From a virus, in IMG/VR virus record IMGVR_UViG_3300027754_000293, positions 1-31,539 of that record: a DNA stretch of 31,539 bases; one strand, 5' to 3'. Below the pieces are notes generated by a model. It had not been told where the DNA came from. It was given only the letters and a program-made list of their open reading frames with translations, and searched no databases. This document shows positions 8,605-18,608 of this stretch, piece by piece; within the stretch, counting starts at the first letter, position 1, and the number at the start of each line of letters is the position of its first letter. Both the position numbers and the translations under genes were made by a program.

Positions 8605-8832
8605 ATGACGAACCGTGACGTTTTCATGTATGTTTTGGGCGCGTTTGTTGTGTTGTGCAACGTTGCGATCCTTTGTGTTTTACTGTTCATTCCTATTCCG
8701 GAAAAGAATCACGACGTGATCAACACGTCGGTCGGTTCAATGCTTATGAATTCCGGATTGGTTGTCGGATATTTTTTCGGATCTTCAAAGTCATCAGCGG
8801 ACAAAAACATTTTGTTAAATCAAAAAAATTGA
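8605..8832 (+). CDS. Small membrane protein, holin candidate
   Basis: A 75-residue protein from ATG 8605, preferred over an upstream TTG inside the fiber gene. It has one strong membrane segment (YVLGAFVVLCNVAILCVLLF, residues 8-27), a polar link, and a second weaker segment (SMLMNSGLVVGYFFGSS, about 47-63), then a charged tail SSADKN. Two-segment small proteins next to an endolysin gene usually act as holins that open the inner membrane. The assignment rests on topology and position. Confidence 0.6.
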   Translation: MTNRDVFMYVLGAFVVLCNVAILCVLLFIPIPEKNHDVINTSVGSMLMNSGLVVGYFFGSSKSSADKNILLNQKN

Positions 8833-8837
8833 TTGCT

Positions 8838-9110
8838 GTGGAGCATTTCGAATTGATAATGGAAAAGTTGGAAAAAATGGACGCGAAAGTGACGTCGATT
8901 GATTTGTCGATCACCGGTGATCCGTTGCGTGGAATGTTGGGAATGAAACAACACGTCGAAACCTTGAAAACGGATTTTCATGATCACGTTAGAACGGACG
9001 CGGATCAATTTAAAAAAATGGACGGCGTTCGTAGTTGGATTGCGGGCGCGGTTTTCGTTGCGGCCGGCGTTGTTTCCGTTGTTGTCTTTGTTGTCAATAA
9101 AATACTATAA
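8838..9110 (+). CDS. XhlA-like membrane-anchored lysis protein
   Basis: A 90-residue protein if the GTG at 8838 is used; an ATG at 8859 would give 83 residues and a TTG at 8829 would overlap the upstream stop. It has a predicted coiled coil (MEKLEKMDAKV, KQHVETLKTDFHDHV) and a single C-terminal membrane segment (WIAGAVFVAAGVVSVVVFVV). That layout, an amphipathic helix then one C-terminal anchor, is that of XhlA-type proteins which act with holins. It sits between holin candidate and endolysin. Confidence 0.5.
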   Translation: MEHFELIMEKLEKMDAKVTSIDLSITGDPLRGMLGMKQHVETLKTDFHDHVRTDADQFKKMDGVRSWIAGAVFVAAGVVSVVVFVVNKIL

Positions 9111-15447: not shown

Positions 15448-17655
15448 ATGATTTCAACCAATCAACCAAAAGTCACGATCTTTAAAAACATTTTACAAAC
15501 GTCCGGCGGTGACGATTTCTATTTGTCCGACATCGTCAAAGCTATTCACGACGGCCATTGGCGCGACAAAATTGAAACGTTGCGTCAACTTGAATCCAAA
15601 TCGGATCGTTCAGATTATAAGAAAAACAATTTACCCTACTTCACCGGATCCGGAACATTCGAAAAACGAAACGACAAATCGTTGACCGAACACAACGGTC
15701 GGATCGTGTTGGATTTCGACAACCTTGAAAACGTTGATCACGCCAAATCGTTGATTTGTTGTGACGAATTCGTCGAACATTGTTTCGTGTCCGCGTCCGG
15801 AAATGGTTTGGCGGCAATCGTCAAAATAGATCCTACAAAACACGCGGAATCGTTCGAATCCGCAAAGAAATATTTCGAACAGAAATATCAATTAACGATC
15901 GATCCGTTGCGTGACGTGTCGCGCGCGCGGTTCATTTCATACGATCCAAACCTTTATTCCAATCCGTCGTCACGCGTTTTCCTAGTCAACCGGTCCGCGG
16001 AACAAAAGATCCGCGACGTGATCGCAAACATGATCAACCGCGCGGCGGACGGTGAACGTCACAATACTGTTTTGAAAAGTTCACGTTTGGCCGGCGGATT
16101 TGTGGCCGGCGGAATCATTGACGAATCCGAAATCGAAAATTTTATTATCGACACAATCACGGCGGCCGGATTCCGAACCGATCAACACGTCCAAACAATA
16201 AAAGACGGAATCAACAACGGCAAAATGTCGCCGTTGCAAATGTCGGACGCCGAACGAATGACGGTCCAATCAAAACAGGATTCGGAAAGTTGGTCGGAAA
16301 TTTATTCGTTCATTCATTCAGTAAATCGCGCCGGACGTCAATTCAACGAAACCGACATCATTCACCTTTGCGAAAAGTATTTGATAAGTCGTGAAAAAGT
16401 CGCGGCCGCGTTCACAAAAATATTCACGGAACATTCCGACGAATTCGATTTGGACAACAAACCGGAAATCGTCCGCGTCGAACTGTTCATTCGTCAACGT
16501 TGGGAAATCGTCCGGAATGACGTGACCGGAATATCCGAATTCCGCGAATGGAATCAACCGGAGTTCGAACGGTTAAACGTCAACACAATTTATCGCGCAA
16601 TCCAACACGCCGGTTTTAAATTTTCGGCCGAAAAACTAAAGTCACTATTGAAATCCGATTTTATTGTTCCGTTCAATCCGTTCGACGATTATTTCGAATC
16701 GTTGCCAACCTGGATCGATGACGAAAATCATGTCGATCACATTTCCAAACTTGCAAATTTCGTAAAAGTCAAAGGATCAGCGGACGATCAAACTTTTTTC
16801 GTCAACCAATTCAAAAAACATTTGGTTCGATCGATACATTGCACTCTACACGGAAAGGAAAATCGATTCGTGTTCGTGTTGATAGGCGAACAGCAAAACA
16901 CCGGCAAATCAACATTCATTCGTTTTTTGAATCCGTTCGGTTCGCGGTATTACACGGAAAGCCCAATCCGCGACAACAAGGACACGGAAATATCGTTCGC
17001 GGAAAACTTTATTCACAACCTTGAGGAATTGTCGTCATTGGGAAAATTAGAGGTCAATCACTTGAAATCCGTGATCAGCCGGTCGATAATAAAAGAGCGC
17101 AAACCATACGGCGAAACGTCGGACGATTATCCGCGCCGCGTCAACTTTTTCGGATCAACAAACAAGGACGAATTTTTAACGGACACGCAAAACACGCGTT
17201 GGTTGTGTTTCGAAGTGACCGAAATCGATTGGAAATATTCAAAGGAAATAAACATAGCGGACGTGTGGGCGCAATCGTTCGCGTTGTCGAAAAATGGTTT
17301 CGATTGCCAATTGACGAAAGAAGAAAGCGAACGCCGTGACCAAGCAAACAAGGCGTTCGAAATAACAGATTTAGAAAAGGACGTTGTTTGTCGTTTCTTT
17401 AAACCAGCACCGGCCAACGAAAATCAATATTTCAAACCAACATCGGAAATCCTTGAATCGATCATCAAATCAACCGACAACCGATTGAAATTCAATTCGT
17501 GGAATCTAAACAAGGCATTGAAACAATTGGGATTCGTTCCGGACCGAAAGGAAATGAACGGTCACCGCGTCCGCGGTTTTTACGTTTGGGCGAATCCAAC
17601 CGACAACGTTTCCGACATCAAAGATCCGATCAGTCCGGACGATTTGCCATTTTAG
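15448..17655 (+). CDS. Primase-helicase (BT4734-like N-domain plus VirE-type helicase)
   Basis: A 735-residue replication protein. Residues 60-170 have archaeo-eukaryotic primase features as found in BT4734-like domains: RIVLDFD at 85-91 (metal-binding Asp pair), ASGNGLAAIV at 116-125 and DVSRARFISYD at 156-166. A linker with a PriCT-like helical segment follows. Residues 420-640 form the VirE-family P-loop helicase, Walker A GEQQNTGKST near 480-489, and FFGSTNKDEFL near the motif C position. The last residues are SPDDLPF, an SSB-like tip. It is followed at once by one small gene and then the iteron-like array, consistent with origin recognition or opening. Confidence 0.88.
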   Translation: MISTNQPKVTIFKNILQTSGGDDFYLSDIVKAIHDGHWRDKIETLRQLESKSDRSDYKKNNLPYFTGSGTFEKRNDKSLTEHNGRIVLDFDNLENVDHAKSLICCDEFVEHCFVSASGNGLAAIVKIDPTKHAESFESAKKYFEQKYQLTIDPLRDVSRARFISYDPNLYSNPSSRVFLVNRSAEQKIRDVIANMINRAADGERHNTVLKSSRLAGGFVAGGIIDESEIENFIIDTITAAGFRTDQHVQTIKDGINNGKMSPLQMSDAERMTVQSKQDSESWSEIYSFIHSVNRAGRQFNETDIIHLCEKYLISREKVAAAFTKIFTEHSDEFDLDNKPEIVRVELFIRQRWEIVRNDVTGISEFREWNQPEFERLNVNTIYRAIQHAGFKFSAEKLKSLLKSDFIVPFNPFDDYFESLPTWIDDENHVDHISKLANFVKVKGSADDQTFFVNQFKKHLVRSIHCTLHGKENRFVFVLIGEQQNTGKSTFIRFLNPFGSRYYTESPIRDNKDTEISFAENFIHNLEELSSLGKLEVNHLKSVISRSIIKERKPYGETSDDYPRRVNFFGSTNKDEFLTDTQNTRWLCFEVTEIDWKYSKEINIADVWAQSFALSKNGFDCQLTKEESERRDQANKAFEITDLEKDVVCRFFKPAPANENQYFKPTSEILESIIKSTDNRLKFNSWNLNKALKQLGFVPDRKEMNGHRVRGFYVWANPTDNVSDIKDPISPDDLPF

Positions 17656-17690: not shown

Positions 17691-17933
17691 ATGAAAACAA
17701 AACAATTCAAACAACAAAACAGATCAATCACACGAAAAACCGTCACACGTGGCAAGGAATCGACGGAACCGGTTCATTTTTACACGAACGGCGCGTCGTC
17801 GGTATGTTGTATCAAAATGACGTTCACTGACCGAATTCGAATCCTATTCGGCGAAAACCTTTGGTTGATCGTAAAAGGAGGGATTCCGATTTTTGATTTG
17901 CAAACCGAAAATCCGTTCGCGGCCAAAAAGTGA
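17691..17933 (+). CDS. Small conserved-looking phage protein, 80 aa
   Basis: A basic N-terminal half (KTKQFKQQNRSITRKTVTRG) and a C-terminal part with MTFTDRIRILFGENLWLIV, a short phrase I associate with small proteins of Bacteroidota phages and elements but cannot name. It ends at the first TGACC repeat, whose TGA is the stop codon. It could be an origin-adjacent accessory factor. Confidence 0.5.
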   Translation: MKTKQFKQQNRSITRKTVTRGKESTEPVHFYTNGASSVCCIKMTFTDRIRILFGENLWLIVKGGIPIFDLQTENPFAAKK

Positions 17934-18170
17934 CCAAAGGTGACCGGAGTTTGGAAAAGTGCAATCAGTTGAAAATCAAACCGTTGTATTGTTTTTGACC
18001 AAAGTGACCAGGCCGCCCACGTGTTTTCCTTAGAGAATATTACGAACACAATATATAAAAAGTAAAAAGGTATAGGAATAGATTGGTCAGATTGGTCAGA
18101 TTGGTCAACGTATTGAAAACCAACGTTTTGCAAAATCAAAAAGTGACCGGATCGACCAAAGTGACCGGAG
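17931..18170. other. Iteron-like repeat array, candidate replication origin
   Basis: About ten copies of a TGACC-centred 9-base unit (TGACCAAAG or TGACCGGAG) occur in a non-coding stretch: 17931, 17941, 17996, 18005 on the plus strand; three inverted copies (GGTCA) at 18085, 18094 and 18103, exactly nine apart; then 18144, 18153 (one mismatch) and 18162. An AT-rich segment (about 18030-18080) sits between the plus-strand and inverted groups, as a duplex-unwinding element would. Similar 30-base blocks flank the region at both ends. It follows the primase-helicase. Alternatives are a late-promoter regulator array. Confidence 0.6.
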
Positions 18171-18209: not shown

Positions 18210-18608
18210 ATGAAAGAAAAAGAAGATTCGGAACAATCGGAATCAAAAATTCAACAGGATTGTTTCGTTTGGTTTTGGAACGAATTTCCATTATTGCGAC
18301 GAACGTTGTTTCACATTCCGAACGGAGGTCCGCGCGGACGCGTTGCCGGAAATCGAATGAAATCGATCGGCGTTGTTGCCGGCGTTCCGGATTTCGTGTT
18401 CGTTCATGACGGTCACGTTCATTTTTTTGAACTGAAAAAACCAGGTGAAACCGTTTCCGGAAAACAAAAGGAAATTCATTTTATATTTGCAAAACAAAAT
18501 TGTCCGGTGACGGTGATCCGTTCGTTGGACGAATTCAAAATAGCAATAACTGATATAATAATCATGTCACAATCAATCCGTCGAATCAATGAACGAATCA
18601 CAAAATAA
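18210..18608 (+). CDS. VRR-NUC domain nuclease
   Basis: A 132-residue PD-(D/E)xK nuclease. Active-site elements in order: Glu11 (SESKIQ), HIPNGG 35-40, GVPDFVFV with Asp61, FELKKP with Glu74 and Lys76, and Gln86. This is the full VRR-NUC pattern, found in phage enzymes that cut branched or flap DNA. It probably clears replication or recombination junctions before packaging, and lies just before the terminase genes. Its 3' end overlaps the next gene by 20 bases. Confidence 0.85.
   Translation: MKEKEDSEQSESKIQQDCFVWFWNEFPLLRRTLFHIPNGGPRGRVAGNRMKSIGVVAGVPDFVFVHDGHVHFFELKKPGETVSGKQKEIHFIFAKQNCPVTVIRSLDEFKIAITDIIIMSQSIRRINERITK

Follow-up and report, generated by a model that had tools for sequence, protein, structure and literature searches.

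Phage-inducible chromosomal islands (PICIs) are small satellites of about 10–20 kb without a full packaging set. In the origins described for these islands and for the staphylococcal pathogenicity islands (SaPIs), with the initiators Rep and PriRep1, the iterons are located directly 3′ of the initiator gene as two sets flanking an AT-rich region (passages of PMC6092414 and PMC7581432). The C-terminal domain of SaPI Rep acts on these iterons, and the C-terminal domains of SaPI Rep and of Cch2 from the staphylococcal cassette chromosome mec (SCCmec) recognise their own origins; that of Cch2 binds short AAGTG iterons just 3′ of its gene (passages of PMC7581432). Origins of the lambda, SPP1 and 80alpha type also have a phage-encoded initiator with its own sites, which are located inside the initiator gene and are used with a helicase loader (passages of PMC5499656). 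Here, an array of TGACC units at positions 17931 to 18166 of the virus record IMGVR_UViG_3300027754_000293 is described. The record is a contig of 31,539 bases and is identical in extent to the stretch analysed (the window). The array follows a gene for a VapE-like primase-helicase and is read, with a probability of about 0.88, as a SaPI/PICI-type replication origin carried by an ordinary tailed phage, with the VapE-like protein as its initiator.

The array and the primase-helicase in the window

The array was found to contain about ten units, as the preliminary description had proposed, nine of them exact TGACC copies and one of them CGACC. The outer pair (units 17931 and 17941; 17931..17945, plus strand) was followed by arm A (units 17996 and 18005; 17996..18009, plus strand), which is directed into an AT-rich spacer (18011..18084), and the spacer was followed by arm B with three inverted units (GGTCA) at 18085, 18094 and 18103 (18085..18107, minus strand). 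Arm C, 41 bp past arm B, contained units at 18144, 18153 and 18162 (18144..18166, plus strand), the middle one being CGACC. Written start to start, the layout is >10> 55 >9> 80 <9<9< 41 >9>9>, and the 9–10 bp spacing, the grouping in twos and threes and the three inverted units that had been noted earlier are all present in these positions. The spacer, which is the proposed melting region, contained 66% AT against 56% in the record, in agreement with the AT-rich core claimed before. The repeats of about 30 bases reported at both ends were recovered in part: two blocks, of 16 nt (17937/18158, 94%) and of 12 nt (17924/18137, 100%), are present twice, though shifted by about one unit.

Over 236 bp, nine exact TGACC copies were counted where 0.41 would be expected (−log10 P 9.2), and the array was the strongest 5-mer cluster of the record; the best value of any 5-mer in 60 dinucleotide shuffles was 6.85, and the densest other TGACC window of the record contained four copies. 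All four same-strand TGACC pairs at 9–10 bp were located inside the array (shuffles average 0.13). In a scan of 5–7-mers over the whole record the array was again first, though narrowly, scoring 5.7 while a CGCCAA cluster near the record start scored 5.4. No match to the array DNA was found among phage records, and Rfam gave no hit. Promoter-like matches were at chance level (2 against 1.5 expected), and terminator-like matches numbered 4 against 1.1 expected.

The VapE-like primase-helicase of 735 residues (15448..17655, plus strand), which is the proposed origin-binding initiator, was recognised from Pfam, PDB and fold matches. It was found to contain VapE-like_dom (E 2.6e-29) and, at the N-terminus, the primase-type BT4734-like_N (E 4.5e-18). 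The only PDB sequence match was 7pds, which is named 'Similar to D. nodosus vapE' with PriRep1 and double-stranded DNA in its title (phmmer E 2.5e-8; by profile E 1.6e-25), and the same entry was the best fold match (Foldseek E 1.9e-14; Z 24.3 over 363 residues, the next being 15.9). We take 7pds to be a SaPI protein, which fits the name PriRep1 and the same-day SaPI5 primase-helicase entries 7ola and 7om0. In the AlphaFold2 model, the C-terminus contained a strand at residues 661–664, helices at 665–675 and 684–693 and strands at 697–703 and 706–715, that is, a predicted winged helix (residues 661–715, codons 17428..17592, plus strand), which is the candidate iteron reader on the basis of this model and of the covariation in relatives described below.

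The array starts 275 bp past the VapE stop, and an open reading frame (ORF) of 80 codons taken from the ORF list (17691..17933, plus strand) is located in between; its stop codon is the TGA of the first TGACC unit, as had been stated. Neither Pfam nor PHROGs contained a match to this ORF, and a tblastn search of 50,697 phage records gave none either; it is without relatives there and may be no gene. From the comparison with relatives, the units are likely bound by the winged helix at the C-terminus of the VapE-like primase-helicase, and not by the 80-residue protein. The winged helix would bind the short units one by one, and the facing arms A and B would seat two helicase assemblies across the AT-rich spacer. 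ATP-driven strain would then open the spacer, each AAA+ ring would load on one strand, and the fused primase part would prime synthesis; replication would start at the array. The steps after binding are modelled on accounts of SaPI Rep and related helicases (passages of PMC7581432) and on general knowledge.

The locus is like the SaPI and PICI origins in the place of the array 3′ of the initiator gene, in two groups of iterons on either side of AT-rich DNA, in a Rep-homologous helicase with a C-terminal domain, in the same spacing within the arms and in a similar arm-to-arm distance (arms A and B are 80 bp apart, start to start). It differs in the unit TGACC, in the small ORF between gene and array, in the fusion of a BT4734-like_N primase part to the helicase and in its location on a record of 31.5 kb that carries terminase genes itself. 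The origin is called PICI-like, but the element itself, with this length and with genes for both the small and the large terminase subunit, is not filed as a PICI. The SCCmec origin differs further, since Cch2 has three iterons only, a D5-type helicase nearer to SaPI5 Rep and a separate polymerase-primase. Two other origin types do not fit. All TGACC units of the cluster are located after the VapE stop and the initiator is itself the helicase, in contrast to the lambda type; and the neighbouring gene encodes a VapE-domain helicase, in contrast to an iteron plasmid origin with a non-helicase winged-helix Rep (RepA/Rep_3).

Arrays behind VapE in relatives and SaPI-like loci

The named relatives with the gene order of the window have Flavobacterium and Cellulophaga as hosts. 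The gap behind VapE was found to contain an array in four of them, each with a unit of its own: GGAAC in lotta8-1, TGTAACC in FPSV-S1, GTGACCAG in phi17:1 and GGTAACC in mumin9-1. The array was the top short-repeat cluster genome-wide in four of six genomes (window, lotta8-1, FPSV-S1 and mumin9-1) and the third in phi17:1; P12024S contained no clear array behind VapE, and none was present among the six top short-repeat clusters of its genome. In Flavobacterium phage mumin9-1 (L006:7122-8028), a nuclease gene annotated PF10544 was located between the VapE stop and most iterons, with units flanking it on the left and the right, as though the origin had been invaded by a mobile nuclease gene.

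Single-sequence queries of viral contigs with the window VapE and VRR-NUC proteins returned no related loci, and a narrower alignment query of genome contigs returned no relative; an alignment query of the IMG/VR viral contigs yielded 80 loci. Together with five phage records and the window these make 86 loci, of which 82 were scorable, in 37 clusters at 80% VapE identity. The motif scoring rewards 7–12-bp phasing and favours phased arrays, and for this reason the identical pipeline was applied to 222 control regions of the same loci. A strong array (score of at least 8) was present behind VapE in 23 of the 37 clusters against 1 of the 222 control regions, a score of at least 5 in 26 clusters against 9 control regions, and the strict two-arm layout in 12 clusters against 1 control region. 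Among 14 more distant annotated VapE phages and satellites, a clear array directly behind VapE was found in four, namely Corynebacterium phage Troy, staphylococcal phage 47, Paenibacillus phage Bob and Marinobacter phage PS3. Streptococcal satellite VapE loci contained weak arrays (comb 2.4–4.5). The origin plan behind VapE is widespread, not universal.

Arrays away from VapE were also observed. In Burkholderia phage Mica (L092) and Escherichia phage ep3 (L093), a GGTGAC array at about 8650–9000, 2.7 kb past VapE, precedes a gene annotated as late transcriptional activator and is either a displaced origin or an operator. In Vibrio phage 1.009.O (L097:800-1150), a GGGGCAC array is located upstream of the primase gene, between divergent genes. 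Arrays of GTTACA/ATGTAA units were found at +3645 (L030) and −2876 (L029) from the VapE stop and are possibly moved origins.

The unit was found to vary among relatives and included GTTACATTA, GGAACA, TGACCA, GTAGTCAC, GGTGGTAA, ACAGAT, GTAATATT, GGTAAGG and others. In most of them the arms, with units at 8–10 bp, face each other over about 80–106 bp, followed by a further arm about 40–50 bp on; examples are >9> 93 <10<9< 41 > 24 <10< in the L051 group, distances of 102 and 53 in L043, and >9>9> 81 <9<9< in Marinobacter PS3. The spacer was AT-richer than the flanks in all 20 clusters tested (median 0.76 against 0.61, the flanks including the less AT-rich units). Random spacing in relatives had been named in advance as a finding that would speak against an origin; the opposite was found, the spacing being kept while the unit changes.

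A SaPI-like set of 46 loci was obtained with the 7pds sequence, on contigs mostly of 6–30 kb, and these were taken as SaPI-like. Their arrays were of the form <8< 70-84 >8>, followed by a third arm after 42–54 bp, in most rows among the matches listed; this is the plan of the window. A profile of staphylococcal phage VapE matched 7pds over positions 370–803 (E 8.6e-118), with the C-terminal domain included.

Covariation of the helicase wing and the unit

The staphylococcal prophage set contained 75 loci with 65 intact proteins, 51 of them distinct. For helicase pairs with an identity of 95% or more as far as residue 680, the last 71 residues were on average 98.9% identical when the unit was common to both (285 pairs) and 80.5% identical when the units differed (15 pairs). 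Among 40 of the 51 distinct proteins, a selection without those below about 70% identity or with a unit of none of the four classes, columns 790 and 801 of 815 were the only ones that fully separated these classes: Ser/Thr and Val were found with TGCAAC, Gln and Leu with GTAAC, Glu and Lys with GGGAC, and Asp and Arg with TGGAC. Both columns are located within the predicted wing (model mean pLDDT, predicted local distance difference test, 73.8). In the DNA alignments L138/L139 and L134/L135/L148, the wing codons and the iterons differed, with hardly any change in the AT-rich core or in the gene downstream. The pattern was seen again in a Flavobacterium phage clade, where L072 and L069 were 87% alike in the C-terminal 110 residues and 99% alike before these, with the units GGTTACC and GTAATATT. 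Another helicase tail swap was seen between L071 and L049, which were 94% identical before the C-terminal 110 residues and 50% within.

In the SaPI set, two wing residues, one located two before R[FY]G and the other directly before a conserved Gln, matched the two bases preceding AC in all 42 distinct cases, which comprised 14 wing types, and an orientation-aware recount gave 44 of 44 rows. That unit caller assigned no unit in 49 of 104 rows, all from phages, and for this reason it was used for SaPIs only, the phage reading being based on de novo unit calls and DNA alignments. In the staphylococcal phages, the second rule, that of the residue before the conserved Gln, holds for the four unit classes.

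These matches suggest a code for the first two bases of NNAC in SaPIs. At the position two before R[FY]G, Gln would specify A as the first base, and Arg or Lys would specify G; at the position before the conserved Gln, Arg or Lys would specify G as the second base, and Leu or Pro would specify A. In staphylococcal phages, Lys or Arg for G and Val or Leu for A are likewise expected at the second base. We lean, without great confidence, towards one origin plan and one short, chemically sensible wing code used by initiators of the VapE/VirE family, by which tailed phages (of Bacteroidota, Firmicutes and some Proteobacteria) and SaPIs would switch origin identity through few wing residues and the iterons while the melting core is kept. 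The VapE of the window and that of L022, the unit of which contains GACCA, have the wing pattern H[RK]VRGFY in common, which is a lead only towards the reading residues of the window.

Weighing of the explanations and meaning of the finding

Past the array of the window, the gene order was found to be a VRR-NUC nuclease gene (18210..18608, plus strand; Pfam VRR_NUC E 2.4e-4, just under the cut-off; phrog_824 E 4.9e-30), located 3′ of the proposed origin, followed by a small ORF and by the small and large terminase subunits, the small subunit starting 0.75 kb past the array. The array is located upstream of the VRR-NUC and terminase genes, and short direct or inverted repeats are common in operators; the units could on these grounds be operators of a transcription regulator for the nuclease-terminase operon, as the GGTGAC array upstream of the late activator gene in two proteobacterial VapE phages also suggests. 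This is very unlikely, as the array stays behind VapE while the downstream genes differ (staphylococcal phage 47, Marinobacter PS3 and SaPIs), the promoter-like matches are at chance, the unit changes along with the VapE wing, and SaPI origins have the same arrangement of two arms on either side of AT-rich DNA. That packaging starts at the array, as a pac or cos site close to the terminase genes, is the least probable alternative. It is favoured by the short distance to the small subunit (less than 1 kb also in lotta8-1 and mumin9-1), but the small subunit gene is about 2 kb away in phi17:1, the examined stretch past VapE contained no annotated terminase in Paenibacillus phage Bob (4.7 kb) and Marinobacter PS3 (4.9 kb), and SaPI arrays follow rep.

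It is also highly improbable, if a little less so than a packaging site, that the array is an origin with units read by another protein, the association of wing and unit being the linkage of co-exchanged neighbouring DNA. The wing codons of staphylococcal phages are located within about 100 bp of the first units, and one crossover pair moves both; but the sole two class-separating columns are both in the wing, the same pairing of residue classes with bases is found again in separate backbones as well as in SaPIs, and SaPI Rep and Cch2 have the origin-recognising C-terminal domains cited above (passages of PMC7581432). These recurrent matches argue for function, short of proof.

Several observations weigh against an origin read by VapE. 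The 80-codon ORF separates VapE from the array in the window, and 11 of the 37 clusters had no strong array, with a score below 5 (L007, L017, L018, L029, L030, L031, L032, L034, L038, L044 and L045, of which L044 has the layout). Among the 14 distant elements, the array was elsewhere in Burkholderia Mica, Escherichia ep3 and Vibrio 1.009.O, and the remaining seven were weak, in coding sequence or without an array. The suggested skew signal was not usefully borne out: cumulative skew in the window reaches a local minimum at 17,747, but no GC-skew switch was found at the array in five of five related whole genomes, and skew is uninformative here as an origin signal. The orientation-aware caller assigned units in 11 phage rows, and three of these misfit the simple rule (two with Leu and C, one with Thr and T). 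Tree-based independent pairs were few (5/5 and 3/3 in the expected direction, p 0.0625 and 0.25, on strictly supported branches), and since wing and origin adjoin on the DNA and recombination can move both, linkage inflates the association. An origin after the primase-helicase, as the preliminary description had suggested, is nevertheless supported as the best reading by the conserved place and layout of the array, by the SaPI homology and by the covariation of wing and unit in relatives.

No report of iterons behind phage VapE or VirE was found in the search listings of an open-licence library. The finding provides an origin prediction and names a likely initiator for a large phage group, and an origin plan described as unique to PICIs is extended to ordinary phages. 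Phage VirE is listed as a virulence factor in recent papers (passages of PMC11946311 and PMC9430571); this label fits poorly with an initiator role, and VapE/VirE looks like a replication initiator, a distinction that matters when phages are screened for therapy. The proposed wing code is a two-residue, two-base recognition rule, and, if it is true, changes of the wing and the iterons would make phage and satellite replicons orthogonal to those of their competitors.
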